Source of the DNA: Bifidobacterium sp. B4142
Lineage (GTDB): Bacteria > Actinomycetota > Actinomycetes > Actinomycetales > Bifidobacteriaceae
Assembly: GCF_026537325.1 (NCBI RefSeq)
Contig: NZ_JAFNMJ010000002.1
Coordinates: 186,001 to 250,000 of the forward strand
Direction: 5' to 3'
DNA: 64,000 bases
Shown here: one piece after another, positions 48,119 through 59,769 of the stretch
How the letters are laid out: every line of letters starts with the position of its first letter
How positions within the stretch are numbered: position 1 is the stretch's first letter
Notes under the pieces: generated by a model
What the model was told of the DNA's origin: nothing
The model's database searches: none
What the model saw: the letters and a program-made list of their open reading frames with translations, nothing else
Position numbers and translations under genes: made by a program

Positions 48119-48258
48119 CCGTTCTGCCTCCAGTGACGCGCCGGAGCTTCTCACCCATGGGGTTCCGGCGTAGTCCACATATAAGTGAGGCCCGTCTGTT
48201 TCCTGTTGCCCTTTTGGGCTATTGTGGACTGCTGGTGGATCGATAAGGAGTCATGCCA

Positions 48259-50148
48259 ATGTGCGGAATTGCTGGGTTCGTCAACGACACCTCTGCCGAG
48301 GAAAAAACGGCCGTGCTCAAGCGGATGACGGACATCATTGCCCACCGAGGCCCCGACAATGAGGGGCATTTCGTTGATGGGCGGGTGGCTCTGGGTTTTC
48401 GGCGCCTGAGCATCATCGACCTGCAGGGCGGCGACCAGCCCATCTTCAACGAGGACTCCTCCCTGGCCATCACCATGAACGGGGAGATCTACAACTACCG
48501 TGAACTGCGCCGCCAGCTGATCGACCTGGGACATACCTTCTCCACCGAGTCCGACACCGAGGTCATCCTGCATGGCTACGAGCAGTGGGGTCACGAGGTG
48601 GTCAACCGCCTGCGCGGCATGTTTGCCTTCGTCATCTGGGACCGGGGACGCGGCGAGCTGTTCGGGGCCCGGGACCACTTCGGCATCAAGCCCTTCTATT
48701 ACGCCCGGATGGGCGGCACCTTCATGTACGCTTCGGAGATCAAGAGCCTCCTGCAGCATCCGGACTTCCACAAGGAGCTCAACACCCAGGCCCTGCGTCC
48801 CTACATGACCTTCCAGTATCCGGCGCTTCCCGAGACCTTCTTCAAGGGCGTATTCAAGCTTCCCGAGGGCCATTGGTTCACCTTCCGGGACGGGAAGATG
48901 GACATCCACCAGTATTACGACCCGGCCTTTGGCGAGAGCAAGCAGGATCTGAAGGACCTGGTCGACTCCATCGACCAGACCGTCCAGGATTCGGTCAAGG
49001 CCCACCAGGTGGCCGATGTGGAGGTGGGCTCCTTCCTCTCCTCCGGGGTGGACTCCAGCTATGTCGCAGCCCTGGCACGCCCCCGGCACACCTATTCAAT
49101 CGGCTTCGGCAAGGGGACCTACAACGAGTCCGACCAGGCCGGCGAGCTGGCCTCCATACTCAAGCTCAACAACACCACCGAGTCCCTGGACGGCGACCAG
49201 GCCTTCAGCTACTTCCCGCAGATTCAGTGGTACATGGACGAACCTGACTCCAACCCCTCCTGTGTGCCGCTCTTCTTCCTTTCCGAGCTGGCCAGCCGGG
49301 ACCTGCGCGTGGTCCTGAGCGGGGAGGGCGCCGACGAGCTCTTCGCGGGCTACGTAGACTACGGCGTGCATACGCGCTCGCGCATCATCAAGGATGTCAC
49401 CCGCCTCCTGGGGCGGCTGCCACGCAAGGCCCGGTATGCCATCGGACGCTGGGCCAAGGGCAAGCACTTCCACGGGGCCTGGCACCTGTATGCCAATCTG
49501 GCCCCCGCCGAGGAGAGCTTCATCGGCCAGGCCAAGGTCTTCGACGAGGACGAGGCCGGCAGGCTGCTCAAGCCGGCCTACCGCAAGGCCCCCCGTGTCT
49601 CTGAGATCACTGGACGAATCTATGCCCGGCTCAAGGGGCGCAGCCTGTCCGAGCTCAAGAAGAAGCAGTACCTGGACATGCATCAGTGGATGCCCGGGGA
49701 CATCCTGCTCAAGGCCGACAAGATGACCATGGCCCACTCCCTGGAGCTGCGGGTGCCACTCCTGGACTGCAAGCTGATGGATGTGGCCGAGAAAGTGCCC
49801 ACCAAATATCTGATCACTGATCAGAACACCAAGTTCGCCTTCCGCAAGGCTGCCGACCGCCATATTCCCCGGGAATGGTCCGCCAGGGAGAAGCTGGGCT
49901 TCCCTGTGCCCATCCGGGACTGGCTGCATCAGGAGCGTTACTACCGGCTGGTCCGTAGCATGTTCGAGCAGGACTGGGTGTCCGAGTTCTTCGACCAGGA
50001 GGCCCTGCTGCGCATGCTGGACGACAACTACGCCAAGCGCAACGACGCCCGTCGCAAGATCTGGACCGTCTACTCCTTCCTGACCTGGTATGACGTCTAT
50101 TTCATCCACGACGGGACCAAACCAGAGCTTCAAGATCTCGGAAAATAA
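48259..50148 (+). CDS. asnB: Asparagine synthase (glutamine-hydrolysing)
   Basis: This 629-residue protein has an N-terminal class II glutaminase beginning MCGIAGF, in which Cys2 becomes the N-terminal nucleophile after Met removal. The C-terminal synthetase has the ATP-pyrophosphatase loop SSGVDSSYVAAL (about residue 260) and SGEGADELFAGY. ATG 48259 lies 8 bases after AAGGAG, whereas the upstream ATG 48253 is only 2 bases from it and would leave the Cys at position 4. It makes asparagine from aspartate with glutamine as the nitrogen donor. Confidence 0.93.
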   Translation: MCGIAGFVNDTSAEEKTAVLKRMTDIIAHRGPDNEGHFVDGRVALGFRRLSIIDLQGGDQPIFNEDSSLAITMNGEIYNYRELRRQLIDLGHTFSTESDTEVILHGYEQWGHEVVNRLRGMFAFVIWDRGRGELFGARDHFGIKPFYYARMGGTFMYASEIKSLLQHPDFHKELNTQALRPYMTFQYPALPETFFKGVFKLPEGHWFTFRDGKMDIHQYYDPAFGESKQDLKDLVDSIDQTVQDSVKAHQVADVEVGSFLSSGVDSSYVAALARPRHTYSIGFGKGTYNESDQAGELASILKLNNTTESLDGDQAFSYFPQIQWYMDEPDSNPSCVPLFFLSELASRDLRVVLSGEGADELFAGYVDYGVHTRSRIIKDVTRLLGRLPRKARYAIGRWAKGKHFHGAWHLYANLAPAEESFIGQAKVFDEDEAGRLLKPAYRKAPRVSEITGRIYARLKGRSLSELKKKQYLDMHQWMPGDILLKADKMTMAHSLELRVPLLDCKLMDVAEKVPTKYLITDQNTKFAFRKAADRHIPREWSAREKLGFPVPIRDWLHQERYYRLVRSMFEQDWVSEFFDQEALLRMLDDNYAKRNDARRKIWTVYSFLTWYDVYFIHDGTKPELQDLGK

Positions 50149-50231
50149 GGCGATACCCCTGAAACAGCTTCAAAGAGCTGGGTAGAAGGTATCATTTAAT
50201 CGTTTTACACCCTGATGTTGCCAGAAGCAGG

Positions 50232-51090
50232 ATGGCGGATGCCGCTGAACTCTATTGGGTGCACGGCATGAAAGTTGCAGCCGTGGCAAGAGAGCTGGAT
50301 GTGTCCACGTCAACTGTCTCGCGTCTGCTGTCTGAGGCGAAACGTCGCCACATCATCGAGTTCACCGTTAATCGGCAGGAGGGCTCAGCGCTCGATCCGA
50401 GGCATCACCTTGAAGAGATGTTCATATCCACGCAGTTGTTGTGGGTCCTGTTGAGATATCGGATGCTATCAGGCGAAGGGTTGCCGTAGGGGATGCCACT
50501 CAATAGCAGATTTGGAAGATGGTGCATTCCCATATGGTCATCGGGGTTGCGTGGGGTCGTACGACAGAATCTCTTTCCTTCAGCTGATACTGAAGCATCT
50601 ATCGGGTGTTGAGATTCTGCAGCCTCATGGTTTCGGGAATATGCTTTCCTTTGGGGGAAATTATTTTACTCAAATTCTCACTCCCTTTGGCACCGCATAT
50701 GACGCTCAAGTTCATTTGTTCCCTGCCCTTGCCATCTTCGATTACAGTGAAACTCGTGAGTTGATGTGGAAAGAGACCAGCATTCGTCAGATGCTGGAAT
50801 TGCGCCGTTCCTTGGATCTGATCATAACCTTTGCCGGCACTCCGTATGAGGCCACGCCCAGTCCTTTGTTTAGTTCGGGAGTGCTGTCCCGTCATGATCG
50901 CGAAGAGCTCAACCGTGAGCATGTAGTGGGGGGACGCGACCCACCTTCTACTGCAGCGACGGCAGCACATCTGTTCCGGCAGTAGGCGGGATTGCTCCAC
51001 ACACAAATACAGGCGTGCATTGTGGCATGGTCTGAATCGTGGTGGATTTTATGGGCTGATTGACCTGCTCGATGCGAACCATATCCAAAT
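50232..51090 (+). pseudogene. SorC-family regulator, frameshifted
   Basis: The N-terminal piece has the SorC helix-turn-helix (AAELYWVHGMKVAAVARELDVSTSTVSRLLSEAKRRHIIEF). The frame then breaks near 50440 and again near 50510-50570. A sugar-binding-domain piece continues as LILKHLSGVEILQPHGFGN and ITFAGTPYEATPSPLFSSGVLSRHDREEL, then shifts near 50930 and fades out around NRGGFYGLIDLLDAN at 51090. Intact family members have about 310-330 residues. It probably once controlled the kinase, permease and isomerase genes downstream. Confidence 0.78.
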
Positions 51091-51112
51091 GCCTGGCTGT
51101 TCATACAGCATG

Positions 51113-51157
51113 TTTTTCATTTATTCATATACCAATGAATACCTAATAAATGAAAAA
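51113..51157. repeat. AT-rich 45-base nested palindrome
   Basis: Perfect 13-base arms TTTTTCATTTATT (51113-51125) and AATAAATGAAAAA (51145-51157) enclose a second pair, ATTCAT (51123-51128) and ATGAAT (51135-51140). Another TTTTTCAT follows near 51175. It lies between the regulator and kinase remnants, where a SorC operator and operon promoter would be expected. It may equally be a hairpin of unknown use. Confidence 0.6.
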
Positions 51158-51365
51158 ATACCCACAATATTTGGTTTTTCATACTGGATATCGCTATTAA
51201 TGCATAAATTGTTCGCTTCTGACGGGTGTTTTGCTATTGCTGAAAGTGCCATAGGGGATGGCGATGTCCTGAAGCGGATCTGAAAAACAGAAGAGCTTAG
51301 TGTCATGCTCCTGGGCTCGCTACCTTTCCGGGTGAAGAGCTCGGGGACAGAGAGGACTGCGCACG

Positions 51366-53100
51366 ATGACGTGTCAGAATGACGATGTCGGTGAATTTGC
51401 AGCCGAATCGATCAGAGGATTCGTCCAGGCCAATTCCGGGTACGTCAAAGCATGCCCGGGTGGCGTGATCTGTTCTGCACGTTCCAGGAATAATCAGTTT
51501 GCGCTGGTAATCGTAGGAGGCATGGGACACTATCCGGCATTCGCGGGACTCGTAGGGCCGGGCATGGCTCAGCCGACCTTACTAGGCAATATATTCGCAT
51601 CTCCGTCCACCAGGCAGGTTGTTGACGTTTGCCGTAGAGCCGATCAAGGGTGAGGCATAATTCGCATCTTCGGTGACCGCGAGGGAGATCGACTGAATTT
51701 CAACCAAGCTGCACGTATGCTTCATGCTGAAGGCCATGATGTACGAGTTCTGCCGGTTAACGATGACCTGTATTCCTCCCTTCTAGATCGAATCCAGGAT
51801 CACCGAGGCATAGCGGGTGATATGGCGGCTTTCAAAATCGCTGGAGCCGTTTGTGCGGCGGGAATGGACCTGGATCCTGTGGAAGCCTTGGCCATACGTG
51901 CCAATGCTTGCACACGAAGCTTGGGTGTTGCATTTTGCGTGTGCAAACTGTCCGGGTCTGACAAATTAGTGTTCAGAGTCCCTGAGGGCCGTATGTCGCT
52001 AGGGCTCGGAATTCAAGGAGAGCCTGGAAACAGTCAAACAGATCGGCCAACTATCGGCGGTTTGGCGGATATGCTGGTCCGATGTCTTATGGATGAAAGA
52101 ACCGAGGACCGCAGATGCATGGGACGCATGTGGCTCCCATCTTTAACGGCTTGGGCGCTCTTAAGTCTGATGACCTTTTGCGGTATACGATGCTGTCCAG
52201 CGACGTTTGCCACAGCTGGGTGTGCGACTGATCCAGCCTCTGATGGGGGAGTTTTTTGCACCAGTTTTGATACGAGCGGATTGACGCTGTCCTTGTGCTG
52301 GCTGGATAAGGACTTGGAGCCTTTTTGGTGTGCTTCCGCTGAGACACCGGCTTTGCCTCTGGGCGATCGTACAGATGCAAATCAGACGGATATAGATGCT
52401 GAAGTGTCTGTACAGGAGGATGGTCCGACTGAGAGAGAACAGCAGGCCGCTCCGGAGTCAAAACAGGCTGCTCAAAGCATGGCCAGAATCATGCTGACTG
52501 TGATGCAATGCGTTGTCGACACTGTGGATTATTTAGGACGAATAGATACGGTGACGGGTGACGGGGATCATGGACTCGGCATGCAGCGCGGCGCTGGAGC
52601 AGAGTCAAAAGCTGCAAATGAAGCAATTGCAACTGGGCCCGGTTACCGAACTGTATTGAAGGAAGCGGCTGAAGCTTGGGCTCATAAGGCAGACGGCATA
52701 TAAGGAGCGCTCTGAGGCGAATTGCTGACATCCCTGGCAGGTCATCCTCCGATTCATCGAGACCCAGCAATGCGGAGGTTGAAGAGGGCTGGCGCGACGC
52801 TGATAAGCAGCTTATCGAGTTTGGCGGGGCAAAACCGGGAGACAAGACCATGATCAATGCCATGCATCCTTTTGTGAAAGCTTTTACGTGCTGCGAAGAA
52901 TCGCTAACAAATACTTGGAGTCATGCTGCAGAAGGTGCTCGCCAGTGGGCTCTGAGGAGACAGCCGATATGCTTCCAAGAAGGGTCGTGCGAAAGCCCAT
53001 GGCGGCAAGGATCTGGATACTCCAGACCCAGAAGCGGTCTCATTCGCTATGATTGTCCAGCCGTAAGTCCCGTACTGAACGATTCGGCCAGCGAAGAACA
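51366..53100 (+). pseudogene. DhaK-DhaL type ketose kinase, multiply frameshifted
   Basis: Pieces in different frames give, in order: the DhaK N-terminus (EFAAESIRGFVQANSGYVKA, VGGMGHYPAFAGLVGPGM, GNIFASPSTRQVVDVCR); the middle (RGIAGDMAAFKIAGAVCAAG, RANACTRSLGVAF, VPEGRMSLGLGIQGEPG); then QLGVRLIQPLMGE; then the DhaL part (LGRIDTVTGDGDHGLGMQRG, GGAKPGDKTMINAMHPF, RAKAHGGKDLDTPDPEAVSF). At least four frame changes occur (near 51655, 52115, 52255 and 52700-52960). The intact protein would be about 570 residues, a DAK-type kinase of dihydroxyacetone or tetruloses. With RpiB-like and TIM-like genes nearby, an erythrulose kinase (DerK/LerK-like) is the best guess. Confidence 0.82.
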
Positions 53101-53478
53101 GTGCAATGCCGACAAGGTAGTGCTTTCAGGAGCGTAGCCATGAGATCAATAAGCCAGTGATCGCCGTTTGCTTGAATAGGGAGCCTCTGCAAGGAGCGGA
53201 CGGTAGATCCATAACCAAGGTCGACCCAAGCGATTGGATCAAGGTTTTCACAGCGATAGCAGGTGCCTGTTCCCATCACGCCGAACTGTCGGTTGCTTTC
53301 TACATTGCCTGCGCCATGGGATCAAGCAGGGTCAATCCCTGGTCGTCAAAAGCTTACCGACGGTCAGGTGAAAAGGATCGACAACGGATGTCATCTGCTT
53401 CCCTGACTGTTCGACGTGCCCCGGCATCCTCACGGTTCCGAGGCCGTCTTTTGGTCATACATTCAAGGAAAGAGTGTC
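53101..53478. other. Unrecognised, probably decayed coding sequence
   Basis: Open pieces such as KPVIAVCLNREPLQGADGRS (from about 53145) and CFPDCSTCPGILTVPRPSFG (around 53395-53455, another frame) look like protein fragments but match no family I can name. They lie between the kinase remnant and the gntP start, so another gene of the same operon may have stood here. Confidence 0.4.
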
Positions 53479-53640
53479 ATGCTTCCAGTTCTCGGCGGCA
53501 TTGTCGCCATTGTTGTTTTAATAGTTTTGATTGTACACTGCAAATTGCATTCCTTTGTGGCGCTCATCAACTCATCTTTGGGCCTTGGTTTGATCAATGG
53601 CCTGGGCACGGAGAAGCCCGTCAAATCCTTCGTTGCCTCA
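53479..53640 (+). pseudogene. GntP-family permease, 5' fragment
   Basis: About 54 codons starting MLPVLGGIVAIVVLIVLIV and continuing KLHSFVALINSSLGLGLING, TEKPVKSFVAS form the first helix and loop of a GntP-type gluconate/sugar-acid:H+ symporter. Similarity then ends at about 53640, where the 3' end of a minus-strand adhesin gene begins. The rest of the gene continues from about 56790, with roughly 140 codons of the middle missing. Confidence 0.78.
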
Positions 53641-54568
53641 CGTCGGAGGTGACCCTGTCGGTCACTGTCTGTCCGTGCTTTAGTTCCTTGGAGGACTCCT
53701 GCGTGGTCACCGTAGGCTGGAAGTCCCTGCGCACCTGAAATTCTATATTGGATGTTTGTGTATCCGGATCTTTGCCGGCAAATATTTTGCTCTGGAGAGT
53801 TATTTATCGCACCCAGGGGGACCTTCCACCAAATTTGTACATTAGTAATACCGTTTCCTATGGCAGCCCAAGCAATGTGCTCCTCCTGCCCATTGGTAAC
53901 GCCAGAAATAGTATTCGTACCAGTCTCACCGAATCGAATCTTATTGTTCAAATCGGTAAACGTATATTGTACCTCGGCGATCCACTGCCCATAGCCGTTC
54001 TTCAATCCAGAATTAACGGTCCCACGCCTTTTTCCTTGCGTGTACTTGTATGACATCTGGGCGTTCGCGGGCATGTTCTTCGCCGCTTCGTCCCACAGCT
54101 GCGCGGCCCGGGCGCCCACGGCGTTCTTATCAGCACCGTCCAAGGACCCATTGGCTTTCCAATAATTCCAGAAATCTGTAGAATTATTGATATTCAAATT
54201 GAGATGATCATGAATGGCCCAGGCAACTGCTGCCTGGTGAAATCACTCATGTCGCTCTTATTCCGATCAACAAGATTTGCTGCAATCCGCTGATCTGGCG
54301 AAGTCGCATCCTGCCATTCTCCAAAACCGGCAAGGGGTTCCCCGAACTGAATGCAATAAACGGGGTTGCCCCCATCCATGGCGGCTATGCCTACGGCAGC
54401 GCCTCGCGAGTTTATAAAGTGCGGTCCCATGGAGATAGGGGACACGTAATACCTGTGCACCAGCCCCGGTCCAGAATCCGCATGGGCAGTAACCGCTCCT
54501 GTGAGGAGCGTTGCCGCTGCTACTACAATCGCACTGAGCAATCGCAGTATCTTGCGCAACCCTTTCAT
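53640..54568 (-). pseudogene. Thioester-domain surface adhesin, truncated and frameshifted
   Basis: The gene starts with a clear signal peptide (MKGLRKILRLLSAIVVAAAT...AHA, cleavage before DSG; GGAAAG before the ATG). It reads VYCIQFGEPLAG, the Cys segment of a thioester domain. Near 54226 the frame shifts, after which DFTRQQ continues as VAWAIHDHLNLNINNS, the Gln-containing partner segment. Then follow GQEEHIAWAAIGNGIT and, after a further shift near 53730, RRDFQPTVTTQESSKELKHG. The sequence stops at VTDRVTSDV against the gntP fragment, so the C-terminus and any sortase signal are lost. Thioester domains form a covalent bond with host molecules. Confidence 0.75.
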
Positions 54569-54604
54569 TTCTTTCCTTTCAGTTAGTTCATAACAGTTTC
54601 TTCA

Positions 54605-55774
54605 TCAGCAAGGAACAGGATCATGACCAAGGACTCCGCAATAGTGAAGTCCCGAACCTCCGCCATTAGATCCCTGACCTGGTGCGGGAGCAGGAGCCGG
54701 TGCGGGAGCAGGAGCCGGTGCAGGTCTGCTGGCTCCACCACCCGTGTAACCGCCACCTGTGCCACCTGTGTGACCGCCGGTGTTCTGGTATCCGCCGCCG
54801 TTGCCGTTCGCGCGGCCGCCGCTCTTGTAGCCGGTTCCGGCGCCTCCCGTGGCGGGGGCTGCGGGTGCGGCTGCCTGCGCGGCTGCTGCCGCGTCGGCGG
54901 CCTGCTTCTGGCTGATGGAGTCGTTGACGGCCTTGACGGCGTCATCCAGGCTCCTTTTCACATCCGCATAGGTCTTCGGATCCGTCACATCCTTCCTGCC
55001 GCTGGCCTGCCTGGCGGCGTCGATGGCCTTGGCCAGGGCGTCCCTGGCGGCGTTGTCCGCCACCTTTCCGTCCGAGCCGCCCAGCAGGGAGGCAGCCGAG
55101 CCGATGGCATCCTCCAGCCCCTTCTTCCCGTCGGCCAGGCTCTTGGCCTTGACGGAGGCCCGTACCTTGGCGGCAGCGGCCCTGTACCGGCCGACGAGCC
55201 CCTTGTTGATGCTGGCGGCCTTGGCCAGCCCGTCCCTGTTCCGGTCCAGCCGTCCGGTGTCCTGGCTGGCCGTGCAGACGGCGGCGGTATGGCCGGCCGG
55301 CTCCCGCACGGCCTGCTCCAGCGTCTTGCGGACGGCGGGGTCGGCCACCTTCTGCTCGGGCGTGGCCTGGAGCATCTTCCTGGCCTCCTCCTGCTCATGC
55401 CGCTGCTTGGCGGCGCTGGCCGTGTACGCCTGGTAGGCGCGGCCGCAGCCTTCAAGCGCATCGGCATGGCGCTGCCTGAACACCCAGACCCCCGCGACCA
55501 CAGCTACGACGATCACAATGACGGCCACGATGGCTGCGACCATGATGGCGCGCCGCCCGAGCCCCCCGCCATTCTTCGGCCCGGCACCGGCCTTGCCGGC
55601 CGGATCCTGCGCGGATCCCCCTTCAGCGAGCTCTCCCACAGAGGGCTGCTCCTCAGCAGCATGCTCCTCGCCGGGCTCCTCCTCGATGGGCTGCGCCTGG
55701 GCCTGGCCGGATTCACCCGGTTCCCTCCCGACTGGTTCGATCCTTGTGGTCTTTGCCGGACCATGCTCGTCCAT
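54605..55774 (-). CDS. Membrane-anchored surface protein with Gly/Pro-Ala tail
   Basis: This 389-residue protein starts at ATG 55774 behind GAGGAGGGGGAG. An acidic Pro/Glu-rich cytoplasmic stretch (1-75) is followed by one transmembrane helix (about 77-99). Next comes a long Ala/Lys-rich helical outer region (100-310) with a Cys pair, and then a Gly-rich segment and a PAPAPA repeat leading to GLHYCGVLGHDPVPC. I recognise no catalytic family. The outer region resembles helical FIVAR-like or colicin-type repeats. It is intact although both neighbours are broken. The flanking genes are fragments of surface proteins, so a surface role is likely. It is very GC-rich compared with the surrounding region. 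Confidence 0.6.
   Translation of the reverse strand: MDEHGPAKTTRIEPVGREPGESGQAQAQPIEEEPGEEHAAEEQPSVGELAEGGSAQDPAGKAGAGPKNGGGLGRRAIMVAAIVAVIVIVVAVVAGVWVFRQRHADALEGCGRAYQAYTASAAKQRHEQEEARKMLQATPEQKVADPAVRKTLEQAVREPAGHTAAVCTASQDTGRLDRNRDGLAKAASINKGLVGRYRAAAAKVRASVKAKSLADGKKGLEDAIGSAASLLGGSDGKVADNAARDALAKAIDAARQASGRKDVTDPKTYADVKRSLDDAVKAVNDSISQKQAADAAAAAQAAAPAAPATGGAGTGYKSGGRANGNGGGYQNTGGHTGGTGGGYTGGGASRPAPAPAPAPAPAPAPGQGSNGGGSGLHYCGVLGHDPVPC
54681..54724. repeat. 18-base tandem repeat coding for Pro-Ala
   Basis: Two exact copies of GGTGCGGGAGCAGGAGCC (54681-54698 and 54699-54716) and a partial third encode the PAPAPA stretch of the surface protein on the minus strand. Copy number could vary by slippage and change the stalk length. 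Confidence 0.7.
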
Positions 55775-55790
55775 GATAAGCTCCCCCTCC

Positions 55791-56790
55791 TCACATGACA
55801 CTTTGCCACCAGCTCCATTCTCCAACATTTGTCGGATTGCCGGGGAGGCCGGACCGCCACGGGCGGTTTTCGACATTTTGGGGTGCATCCCCTTGCCGGG
55901 GTGTATGCATCATGACGGTGACGGGCTTGTCGCCACCGGGTCCTGCGCCAGCGGGGGAGCAGGATCGAAAGAATGGAACAAATGACGAGCAGAATGCACG
56001 TGACGATGATCGGGGTGATGCTGCTTTCGACTTGGGCCAGTATCCCGGTGATGCCGTTTTCTGCTCGCGGATGTCCGGCGGCGGCGACGTGGACGTGTAG
56101 TTCCTGGTCACGAGGCCATCGGCGCTGGTGGTGGTGATTGATGCGTCGGCACCGTTCTTATGGGTGTGCACGCTCATGCCGGATCGTTCGTCGTATTGCG
56201 GGACGATGGTCCATTGGTCGGTCCTGGGCACCTCGACCGTGTATTGGCGGGTGTCCGGGTTGAAGTGCTGTATATCGTGGCCATTCACCTTGATGCCGGT
56301 CAGACGGCCACCTGGGTGGCTGGGGGGAGGGGTGATGTAGATGATCGTGATTACATGCTGGACGAAGTTTCTGAGATCCCCCGGGGCAACGATGTTGACG
56401 GTGTACCGGTAGGTCATGCCCTTGGTCTTCGACGTGGTGACGACGGCCACCTGTCCTGTTTTGGCCTGGTAGGAGAATACGCCGCCATTCGGGATGGTGT
56501 ATTGTCCTTGTCCACTGTCACGTACTTGCCATCGGCATCGACATATCCGTGCGCTTGCAGGTCGGCGTCGTGTTCGTACTCCGTCTGCGTGCCTCCCTGA
56601 CGGATCGGCTGTTTCGGCGTGGATGTCCCTACTGCAGGGTTCGGTTCTCAGCTGTCTACTACCGGTATCGTGATAGGTTCGGGAGCTGTCATCGGTGTAG
56701 GTGCAATCGGCGTGGATCTCGGGTTGATTTCCATAATCGACATCGTAATCTGCATTCCTGAGTTCGCTGCCGGTGTCTGACTGTTCTCCC
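55791..56790 (-). pseudogene. C-terminal fragment of a surface protein, frameshifted
   Basis: Read on the minus strand from 56790, the pieces give GYVDADGKYVTVDKDNT, then after a shift YTIPNGGVFSYQAKTGQ, VTTSKTKGMTYRYTVNIVAP, LTGIKVNGHDIQHFNPDTRQ and VTRNYT. A further shift near 56095 gives HVAAAGHPRAENGITG and a membrane helix (IIVTCILLVICSILSILL) with a basic tail. This is the beta-sandwich and membrane-anchor end of a surface protein. The upstream part is missing, cut off at the junction with gntP. It lies just upstream of the intact membrane-anchored gene. Confidence 0.65.
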
Positions 56791-57548
56791 AAGCTTATAC
56801 AACGGTATTACCCTCGCTATCAGGTAAGCGACGGCTCTGAGTATGCCATCAAGGACGACGCCCTGGCACAGGTTTCCAGCATGCTCAAATCACTATCTTC
56901 GGTTTTGCTGGCCCCAATATTGCTGATCATCGGCACCATCGACAAGGCGTTCTTCTCCCAGAGCTCCGTCGATTATGTGATTACGCGATTTTTTGGGAAT
57001 ACTGTGATCGTCTTGCTGCTGTCGGCCCTGTACGCGCTGATCTTCTTGGGGCTCGGTTCGGGCATGACCGCCAAGAGAACATTGAGTCAGAGCAAGACCA
57101 GCTTAAAAGATATGGTCAATGTTCTGCTGATCATTGGCGAAGGCGGTGGCCTTAAGGAAATGATGCAGAGCACTGGTCTGAGCGCTCAAATAGCGACAAC
57201 CACATCCAAGTGGGCCATTCCCACCGTTCTGTCGGCTTGGCTGATCGCTACGCTCTTCCGAGCCGCTCTTTGGTCTGGCACGGTCGCTGTGGCGGCTGCA
57301 GCGGGCATTGCGGCTCCGATGGTCGCACAAACTGGTGATTTGCAAAAGGCGCTGGCTGTTCTAGCCATCGCCGTAGGCGCGATGATCTTTCTCATGCAAA
57401 TGATGGTGCCTTCTGGCCCTTCCAGGAGCATCTGGACATGACAGTTCTTCAGGAGTTGAAAACATGGAGCTTTCTGGTGACTGTCCAATCGGTGGTAGGT
57501 CCGATTGCTCTGCTGCTGGTGGATGCCGTCCTAGGCATTGTGGTATAG
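56790..57548 (+). pseudogene. GntP-family permease, 3' fragment with frameshift
   Basis: The translation resumes at KLIQRYYPRYQVSDGSEYAI and continues with the typical GntP membrane segments MLKSLSSVLLAPILLIIGT, VNVLLIIGEGGGLKEMM and SAWLIATLFRAALWSGTVA. At about 57390 one T appears lost after ATGATC: the open frame runs into an unrelated end, while the shifted frame gives SHANDGAFWPFQEHLDMTV and ends GIVV at TAG 57546-57548, as expected for GntP. It carries two lesions, the missing middle and this frameshift. Confidence 0.8.
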
Positions 57549-57599
57549 GCCGCTAGCCCGCTACGTCGATATTCGAGATTCAAGGAAAGGTGAAAGATA

Positions 57600-58040
57600 A
57601 TGAGACTGGCGTTTGGAGCCGATCCTAATGCTGCAGGGTTGAAGAATGTGCTCATGGAGGAGGCAAGACGTCTAGGTCACGAGGTGATCGATTTCCCTAC
57701 TGATGATCCGATCTACGCCAACGTGGCCATCGCCCTTGCGCAGTCCGTGGTTAGGGGCGAAGCGGATCGAGGCGTCCTGCTGTGCGGGACGGGTCTAGGC
57801 GTTTCGATCTCGGCCAATAAGGTGCCGGGAGCCTATTGCGCTTGCGTATCGGACATATACCAAGCCGAGCGTGCCCGCCGCAGCAATGATGCGAACATCA
57901 TCGCCATGGGTGCTCAGGTTCTGGGGCCCGAAACAGCCAAATCCCTGTTAAGGGCCTATCTGGACAGTGAGTTCGATCCTGATTCCAGAAGTGGCCCGAA
58001 GGTGGCGCGCATCCGCGAATTTGAGCTTCATCAGCAATGA
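57600..58040 (+). CDS. rpiB: RpiB/LacAB-family sugar phosphate isomerase
   Basis: This 146-residue isomerase has the active-site Cys in LLCGTGLGVSISANK (about residue 62), SNDANIIAMGAQVLG and the C-terminal VARIREFE. It interconverts aldose and ketose phosphates. A position next to a TIM-like isomerase and a DAK-type kinase remnant suggests an EryI/DerI-like role on erythrulose 4-phosphate rather than ribose 5-phosphate. Allose or ribose phosphate remain possible. ATG 57600 follows GGAAAGGTGAAAG. It is intact, unlike the upstream genes of the presumed operon. Confidence 0.85.
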   Translation: MRLAFGADPNAAGLKNVLMEEARRLGHEVIDFPTDDPIYANVAIALAQSVVRGEADRGVLLCGTGLGVSISANKVPGAYCACVSDIYQAERARRSNDANIIAMGAQVLGPETAKSLLRAYLDSEFDPDSRSGPKVARIREFELHQQ

Positions 58041-58090
58041 TGAATCCGTGGGCAGCAGATAGTCAATTTTAATAGCGCAGAGTGGGGAAG

Positions 58091-58867
58091 ATGAACAAGC
58101 CGATTGTAGCTATAAGCCTGAAAATGTATTTTACAAGAAAACAGACACTGGCATATTGTCGACGATTAGCCGATCTTCTCAATGCCGCAGCCCTTCCACT
58201 GGACAAGGTGACCATGGCGGTTTTGCCGGATTACCTTACGGTGGAGCAGGCTGGGCAGGCCCTGCTGTCCACGGATGTTCATCTTGGTATTCAGGATGTA
58301 TGCGATCAAGATCGTGGCCCGTTTACTGGAGAGGTCTCGCCCCGGGATGCTTTTGATCTGGGTGTGACCGTGGCCGAAGTGGGTCATGAGGAACGCCGTC
58401 GCCTGTATGGGGAAGATGATGAACTCATCGGGCGGAAGGTTCTTGCATGCTGGCGCAATGGATTGACACCCCTGCTGTGTGTGGGTGAGCTGAGCAACCA
58501 CGGTCCTGAGGCAGCCGCTGATTATTGCTTAAAGCAGATCGAAATGGGGCTGGGTGAGAAGCCTGACCTTCCAGCCTGGATTGCATATGAACCCGTCTGG
58601 GCCGTCGGAGCTTCCCGCCCCGCTCCAGTTGAATACGTCCAAGAGGTATGTTCGATTATCAAAAACAAGCTTGGCCCCCAATGCCACAATTTGTCGCTCA
58701 TATATGGAGGGGCCGCTGCTCCGGGATTGTTGACTGAGCTATGGCCAACTGTCGATGGGGTCTTTCTAGGTCGTTTCGCGCATGATCCCGCTGCTTTCCT
58801 GGAAGTCGTGAAAGAGGCCTGGCGCCTGATCAGCCAGGACTCGGAGGTCCAGAACGGTCAGAGTTGA
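58091..58867 (+). CDS. Triose-phosphate-isomerase-like protein (EryH/LerI-like)
   Basis: This 258-residue TIM-barrel protein keeps the catalytic Lys (SLKMYF, K11), His (VGHEERRRLYGE, about 98) and Glu (AYEPVWAVG, about 166). It differs from glycolytic TpiA by SLKMY in place of NWKM and by VGHEERR in place of VGHSERR. Such paralogues next to RpiB-like and DAK-type kinase genes act on erythrulose 1-phosphate in tetritol pathways. That is an inference; a second triose phosphate isomerase is the alternative. ATG 58091 was preferred to GTG 58082. It is the last gene of the 50-59 kb accessory region. Confidence 0.82.
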   Translation: MNKPIVAISLKMYFTRKQTLAYCRRLADLLNAAALPLDKVTMAVLPDYLTVEQAGQALLSTDVHLGIQDVCDQDRGPFTGEVSPRDAFDLGVTVAEVGHEERRRLYGEDDELIGRKVLACWRNGLTPLLCVGELSNHGPEAAADYCLKQIEMGLGEKPDLPAWIAYEPVWAVGASRPAPVEYVQEVCSIIKNKLGPQCHNLSLIYGGAAAPGLLTELWPTVDGVFLGRFAHDPAAFLEVVKEAWRLISQDSEVQNGQS

Positions 58868-59100: not shown

Positions 59101-59769
59101 ATTAGCGACGAACCAAGGATTAACGACGATATACGAGTGTCTCAGGTACGCCTGATCGGGCCCAACGGCGAACAGGTGGGAATCATTGCGACCTCCGTCG
59201 CCCTCAACCTGGCCAAGGAGGCCAACCTTGACCTGGTCGAGGTTGCGCCCAAGGCCAAGCCTCCGGTCGCCAAGCTCATTGATTACGGCAAGTTCAAATA
59301 CAACGAGAAGATCAAGGCTCGTGAGGCGCGCCGCAATCAGAGCATGTCGGAGATCAAAGAGATCCGCTTCAGATTGAAGATCGACGACCACGACTTCGAG
59401 GTCAAGGAGGGGCACGTGCGCCGCTTCCTGTCCGCCGGAGACAAGGTCAAGGTCACTATCATGTTGCGTGGGCGCGAGCAGTCCCGGCCCATCGGCGGCG
59501 TGGAGCTCCTGCGTAAGCTGGCTGACGACGTCGCGGATCTGGGCTCCATCGAGTTTGCCCCCAAGCAGGAGGGGCGCAACATCATCATGACCCTGTCGCC
59601 CAAGGGCAAGAAGGTCCACACCCAGTCCGAGCAGCGTCGGCGGGGCGGTCAGGCCCGTGCCGAGCGCAAGGCCCGTCAGGCGGCCCATCTGGCTGCCAAG
59701 GCCGACAACAATACTTCTCCCAAGCAGATGAAATCCAAGGAGGGCAGCAATGCCGAAGATGAAAAGTAA
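59101..59769 (+). CDS. infC: Translation initiation factor IF-3 (AUU start)
   Basis: This 222-residue IF-3 binds the 30S subunit and checks the start codon. The family start [13 protein letters not shown] is encoded from ATT at 59101, 5 bases after AAGGAG; a GTG at 59137 would cut off 12 conserved residues. A rare AUU start of infC is known from E. coli, where IF-3 represses its own non-AUG start. The N-domain [12 protein letters not shown] and C-domain [14 protein letters not shown] and [13 protein letters not shown] are complete. It overlaps rpmI by 20 bases. Confidence 0.93.

Follow-up and report, generated by a model that had tools for sequence, protein, structure and literature searches.

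Remnants in Bifidobacterium sp. B4142 of an operon whose intact form in sister genomes suggests a sugar-acid route to erythrose-4-phosphate

The 64,000-nucleotide stretch of Bifidobacterium sp. B4142 analysed here (the window; source genome 2.22 Mb) holds, between the asparagine synthase gene asnB and infC, a decayed operon that is intact at the same asnB-infC site in three sister genomes, G019, G021, and G011. The intact operon encodes, in order, a SorC regulator, a DhaK-DhaL fusion kinase (DhaKL), a xylose-isomerase-like protein of the AP_endonuc_2 family (hereafter Iso), a PdxA-like dehydrogenase, a GntP permease, an RpiB-like isomerase, and a TIM-like isomerase. On this gene content we consider the chances about even that the operon converts a sugar acid, likely a pentonate, via a tetrulose to erythrose-4-phosphate. 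A first-pass annotation of the window had proposed an erythrulose/erythritol-type operon; its tetrulose-phosphate core (an EryH/EryI-like isomerase pair and a Dak-family kinase) holds up, whereas the erythritol/threitol type does not, since the intact operon is without a polyol enzyme and has GntP, PdxA-like, and AP_endonuc_2 genes instead.

The GntP permease of the intact operon passes TIGR00791 (gluconate:H+ symporter), and its occurrence together with a PdxA-like and an AP_endonuc_2 protein points to a sugar acid as the substrate. The kinase is of the Dak1/Dak2 kind, not DUF1537; it passes the NCBIfam dihydroxyacetone kinase family model and matches Dak-family models and dihydroxyacetone kinases across nearly its full length. 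No polyol kinase or polyol dehydrogenase was found among the seven genes. Within the genus, kinase matches were obtained in only four of 27 genomes (the three sisters and the broken window copy), and among the 27 infC loci the operon TIM lies upstream in four, asnB as the immediate neighbour without intervening operon genes in six, msr in 16, and no tested gene in one. The operon is therefore a single-clade cassette that was either acquired by that clade or lost from the others. Among named relatives, the nearest found was Bifidobacterium mizhiense, whose TIM (L032) is 98% identical to that of the window. The G011 TIM was considered as a broken gene and rejected as such, its TAG being codon 255 of 261. 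Third-position changes seen only in G011 number 36 in 1,762 compared bases of the kinase vs. 125 in 1,896 of asnB (L033, L034, and L035), which hints that the intact operon may have been exchanged between species.

Building on the gene content, synteny, decay, and subfamily signatures, which were observed directly, we infer the substrate, each reaction, and the order of steps as follows. GntP would import a small sugar acid. PdxA enzymes oxidise a C3 hydroxyl with decarboxylation, and the PdxA-like protein may do so with an unphosphorylated acid, the 3-oxo acid losing CO2 to give a tetrulose. A pentonate would by this chemistry yield erythrulose, whereas a tetronate would yield dihydroxyacetone, and the RpiB/TIM pair favours the pentonate; the product would probably be L-erythrulose, which is favoured because the TIM-like step has been kept. 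DhaKL would phosphorylate the tetrulose, and the TIM-like and RpiB-like isomerases would convert L-erythrulose-1-phosphate first to D-erythrulose-4-phosphate and then to the bifid shunt intermediate D-erythrose-4-phosphate. Iso may serve as an isomerase, epimerase, or decarboxylase at some step.

The PdxA-like proteins are set apart by their residues. In all seven that lie beside DhaKL or Iso, the GHTE motif (Escherichia coli residues 135-138) is replaced by D-E-x-[RA] and Arg292 by Ile, Leu, or Val (DELR and Ile in the bifidobacterial operons), and the three zinc His and Lys274 are kept. In a sample of 394 Actinomycetes genomes there were 62 PdxA matches in 52 genomes, of which 30 were read, the other 32 having E values of 2.0e-44 or weaker; the best five of the 30 loci (E 3.7e-86 or better) have the DE form, and the remaining 25 have GHTE and Arg. 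Iso was found in four of the five DE-form genomes (Fisher's test, 1.5e-5, with the Iso and PdxA samples taken as the same 394 genomes). By these signatures the operon PdxA-like protein belongs to a distinct subfamily without the usual GHTE and Arg292 motifs.

The two isomerases likewise have features of their own. A profile of 14 operon and cluster TIMs found as its best match in the PDB 11ef, an L-erythrulose-1-phosphate isomerase, at 282.6 bits, followed by the putative TIM 3s6d (224.8 bits) and ordinary TIMs (from 224.4 bits). Two residues before the catalytic Lys, Ser takes the place of Asn in all 14 profile TIMs and in the 6/6 operon TIMs of the genus, whereas Asn is kept in 24 of the 24 housekeeping TIM loci read, a count that leaves out three further matches and one fragment without loci. 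The profile match and the contrast of Ser with Asn rule out an ordinary TpiA, and the assignment of the operon TIM as EryH-type, distinct from the housekeeping TIM, is supported at the level of sequence. All 14 RpiB-like isomerases have Ser in the alignment column of the ring-opening His; at the position after Asp8 none has His and three have Asn, a common alternative according to PMC3212906. The same source describes the identical His-to-Ser change in RpiB of Coccidioides immitis (3QD5, 3SDW, and 3SGW), the authors suspecting shorter-chain substrates, and these structures were the best PDB matches of the RpiB-like profile at 233 bits, the next other protein scoring 157. Matches to the RpiB-like gene (E 1e-10) occur in six of the 27 genus genomes, namely the three sisters, the window, and two others (G003 and G008) taken up below. 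Together the features of the two proteins support a tetrulose-phosphate core.

Iso matches were found in 18 of 394 Actinomycetes genomes, and all 18 were examined (17 loci and G063, whose PdxA-like gene sits on a different short contig from its Iso). Of these, 16 have DhaKL (in L075 ~9 kb off, where the locus ends), 14 RpiB, and 13 TIM, and the dehydrogenase is 3HCDH-type in 11, PdxA-like in four, both in none, and neither in three. L-Gulonate 3-dehydrogenase is a member of the 3HCDH family, and the interchangeability of two unrelated C3-oxidising families in one cluster points to a front end that would handle a 3-oxo acid. Acid-type carrier genes accompany 13 of the 18 (major facilitator superfamily, MFS, in six; tripartite in five; GntP in two), as recognised by tblastn to reference carriers, those of MFS at 23-27% identity only; the one MFS protein scanned had a D-galactonate transporter as its best NCBIfam model, below the cut-off of that model. 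ATP-binding cassette (ABC) permease genes are found at L068 and L070, and the carriers at L069, L072, and L075 are unclassified. At L068 (6118-7323 and 9427-10320), Iso, DhaKL, and RpiB stand beside an adenosine deaminase and the ABC permease gene, no dehydrogenase of either the 3HCDH or the PdxA-like type was found, and the locus is perhaps a nucleoside-fed variant. Iso also matches 93 plasmid records, and both of those read, from Shinella and Sinorhizobium plasmids, have PdxA (annotated as a vitamin B6 enzyme), a tripartite carrier, Iso, and DhaKL, although the kinase match in the Sinorhizobium record is split in two and has no gene annotated for it.

These clusters lead us to put forward, tentatively and with less assurance than the route in the intact operon itself, a modular sugar-acid pathway of Actinomycetes and rhizobia. 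In it, unphosphorylated pentonates would undergo C3 oxidation by either of two interchangeable enzymes, one of the new PdxA subfamily and one of the 3HCDH type; decarboxylation would give erythrulose, which a Dak kinase and EryH/EryI-like isomerases would then recover as erythrose-4-phosphate, with L-pentonates from plant ascorbate breakdown as a possible source; the bifidobacterial clade would hold the cassette between asnB and infC, and the window lineage would be losing it.

A related cluster in G003 and G008 has relatives of the SorC (54%), RpiB-like (69%), and TIM-like (55-56%) genes with a different front end, consisting of an MFS carrier, a DUF1537 kinase, and a PdxA that, judging by its residues in G003, is of the GHTE type. 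The isomerase pair thus appears to be the constant part of a system with two alternative starts. In G408 (L106, 9663-11965), a DE-type PdxA is followed directly by a DUF1537-type kinase, possibly a third front-end variant. In G001, another member of the genus (L038, 6739-6936), a TIM C-terminal fragment (36 residues, 72% to G003) abuts an opposite-strand SorC C-terminal fragment (32 residues, 66% to G003), and the two appear to be the last relic of an almost wholly deleted G003-type cluster.

Several observations weigh against the pentonate reading. RpiB is missing in four and TIM in five of the 18 Iso genomes, neither dehydrogenase type was found at L064, L068, or L075, and RpiB and TIM were not found in the ~9 kb read on each side of the rhizobial clusters. 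G408, the fifth of the DE-form genomes, has neither DhaKL nor Iso within ~10 kb of its PdxA. The G003-type set of DUF1537 kinase and GHTE-type PdxA is the one that yields dihydroxyacetone phosphate in known tetronate pathways, and the pair beside it is therefore no proof of a C4 product. In the E. coli PdxA structure the substrate phosphate is bound by GHTE and Arg292, a role for which literature confirmation was not found. The window TIM alone retrieves 3s6d first from the PDB and 11ef just sixth. The window RpiB-like protein passes two RpiB models, TIGR00689 and PRK05571 (ribose-5-phosphate isomerase B; 141.1 against a cut-off of 135), and scores 142.9 against a cut-off of 240 for the DerI model. 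The likeness to EryH and EryI claimed in the first-pass annotation is borne out for the TIM by its profile match; for the RpiB-like isomerase the constant Ser and the match to C. immitis RpiB speak for it, and the DerI and RpiB models against it. As to its other possibility, that of ordinary homologues without a shared cluster, the cluster does recur in relatives and its TIM is of a special kind, although the kinase and the RpiB-like protein pass broad family models.

Some of these observations would suit a tetronate route, in which the PdxA-like enzyme would convert a C4 acid to dihydroxyacetone and DhaKL would make dihydroxyacetone phosphate of it, leaving the TIM-like and RpiB-like proteins as accessories. 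The rhizobial clusters share the front end with neither isomerase nearby, DhaKL passes a dihydroxyacetone kinase model, and DUF1537-type and 6PGDH-type genes, which also occur in tetronate pathways, adjoin the L059 cluster, the same two open reading frame (ORF) groups appearing again in L065. We nonetheless regard this route as unlikely given that most Iso genomes have kept RpiB and TIM, that both resemble tetrulose-phosphate enzymes, and that a housekeeping TIM is already present. Alternatively, phosphorylation may precede decarboxylation, the kinase acting on the 3-oxo acid and CO2 being lost later. Known 3-oxo-tetronate kinases phosphorylate the 3-oxo acid itself, a DUF1537-type kinase adjoins the DE-type PdxA of G408, and a 3-oxo acid may persist where the dehydrogenase is 3HCDH-type, as enzymes of that type would not be expected to release CO2 unaided; a separate decarboxylase gene was not met in family scans covering part of the cluster genes. 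Since the Dak family binds ketoses and DhaKL matches that family over nearly its whole length, we think this order of steps improbable. The catabolism of erythritol, threitol, or free erythrulose suggested at first is in our view just as improbable: the Dak kinase and the EryH/EryI-like isomerases would suit it, and PMC5992420, which describes EryH (TpiA2) and EryI (RpiB) as isomerases of erythritol catabolism, refers to the use of L-erythrulose through a dihydroxyacetone kinase and homologous isomerases (Brucella and Yarrowia), but the seven-gene operon lacks a polyol kinase or dehydrogenase and its GntP and PdxA-like genes would be left without a role.

In the window itself the pentonate route, if it existed there, is dead: import, oxidation, and phosphorylation are all lost (Table 1). 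Pfam scans of the separate pieces confirmed the families that the first-pass annotation had named for its five recognisable genes, by Sugar-bind for the regulator (2.6e-9), Dak1 (1.4e-18 and 1.9e-33) and Dak2 (1.4e-4, under its curated cut-off) for the kinase, GntP_permease (9.6e-8 and 6.3e-36) for the permease, and LacAB_rpiB (1.7e-39) and TIM (4.6e-50) for the isomerases. The breakage it had reported was also evident on comparison with the intact operon of G019 (L033), our reference for the window pieces: SorC lies in three reading frames and the kinase in two, the kinase match is interrupted by five TGA and three TAA stops, and the permease is in five pieces. A 1,784-bp segment of L033 (7541-9324) is absent at window position 53294-53296, a loss that took the greater part of Iso and almost the entire PdxA-like gene, so the first-pass annotation could not take account of the two genes with the greatest bearing on the interpretation. 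This deletion and those of 159 bp (SorC 3' end) and 263 bp (within GntP) are flanked in the intact sequence by short direct repeats of 6, 11, and 9 bp, respectively, of which the 6-bp repeat could be of chance origin.

Table 1. Parts of the decayed operon in the window, with flanking genes
Feature	Position	Strand	State	Basis
SorC regulator remnant	50199..50967	+	three frames; 3' end deleted (159 bp)	
DhaK-DhaL fusion kinase remnant	51366..53131	+	8 in-frame stops; frameshift close to 3' end	
Iso (AP_endonuc_2, xylose-isomerase-like) 5' remnant	53104..53296	+		alignment to intact operon
PdxA-like gene 3' remnant	53294..53342	+	last ~16 codons	alignment to intact operon
GntP permease 5' piece	53416..53630	+		Pfam and alignment to intact operon
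2,999-bp insert within GntP	53631..56629	- (ORFs)	G+C 0.607	
GntP permease 3' pieces	56630..57548	+	263-bp deletion	Pfam and alignment to intact operon
RpiB-like isomerase	57600..58040	+	intact; Ser in place of ring-opening His	ORF, Pfam, alignment
TIM-like isomerase	58082..58867	+	intact; EryH-like	ORF, Pfam, profile
Asparagine synthase (asnB), left flank	48253..50148	+	outside operon	name from translation read by eye
infC, right flank	59137..59769	+	outside operon	name from translation read by eye

Substitutions found only in the window amount to 266 in 3,787 compared positions of the broken parts, spread evenly over the codon positions (92/96/78, chi-square p 0.37), vs. 4 in 1,227 of RpiB and TIM and 10 in 1,896 of asnB. 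The difference between the broken parts and the isomerases rules out decay of the whole operon. The isomerases are indeed intact, as the first-pass annotation had stated, both being open reading frames 100% (RpiB-like) and 98% (TIM-like) identical to those of G019. Between the window RpiB and those of G019 and G021 there are 9 and 11 synonymous and no non-synonymous differences, and the synonymous divergence (dS) of TIM is 0.04 and 0.02, respectively. The bins at 57388, 57488 (where GntP ends), and 57588 (where RpiB starts) differ from G019 by 12%, 5%, and 0%, respectively, and divergence stays at 0-5% thereafter; it drops also at the asnB stop. Because the non-coding DNA to the right of TIM has diverged just 0-2%, recent recombination is as possible as selection: the isomerases may have been refreshed by the former or may remain under the latter. 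The insert in GntP has a higher G+C content than the broken operon (0.49-0.53) and includes a 427-residue minus-strand ORF with relatives in 24 of the 27 genus genomes and a 124-residue ORF without a second copy in its own genome. As to a transposon origin, none of the three minus-strand ORFs scanned, from among those in the insert, gave a transposase, the ends having been checked by junction reading alone.

Were the pentonate route correct, it would supply a function for a PdxA subfamily annotated as a vitamin B6 enzyme, would tie this subfamily to tetrulose-phosphate isomerases and kinases of the Dak family, and would predict a bifidobacterial carbon source for which our literature search found no description. 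As the first-pass annotation had supposed, no account of this cluster, or of a tetrulose pathway in bifidobacteria, was found in the open full-text literature; subscription papers mostly lie outside it, and this is weak evidence of novelty. The loss of the operon in one lineage while its sisters keep it is a clear natural case, although with the route dead there the value for the window itself is modest.

Among known systems, the EryH/EryI and Dak-kinase route for L-erythrulose has the same Dak-family kinase and TIM-like and RpiB-like isomerases directed toward erythrose-4-phosphate, but the bifidobacterial operon is without a polyol enzyme and has GntP, the PdxA-like protein, and Iso instead. 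A DerK/LerK pathway is reportedly described for Mycobacterium smegmatis; PMC12780249 cites it (Huang 2015). A dha operon for dihydroxyacetone, with TpiA and RpiB of the ordinary kind, would differ in its TIM, that of the present operon not being of the housekeeping type. The tetronate pathways with DUF1537 and PdxA2 are known sugar-acid systems. They employ a dehydrogenase of the same PdxA family in a sugar-acid context (PdxA2 is D-threonate 4-phosphate dehydrogenase, PDB 6e85), and the G003/G008 cluster combines DUF1537 and GHTE-type PdxA with an isomerase pair of the same kind, whereas the present operon has a Dak kinase and a PdxA-like protein without GHTE and Arg292. The rhizobial cluster of GntR, PdxA, TctCBA, Iso, and DhaKL shares the grouping of Iso, DE-type PdxA, and DhaKL, but differs in its tripartite transporter and in the absence of RpiB and TIM over the distance read, its annotation being at family level only. 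The 3HCDH-type clusters of Actinomycetes (L059-L074) have the same Iso and DhaKL, mostly RpiB and TIM, and an acid-type carrier, with a 3HCDH-type enzyme replacing the PdxA-like protein and a GntR-type regulator replacing SorC.

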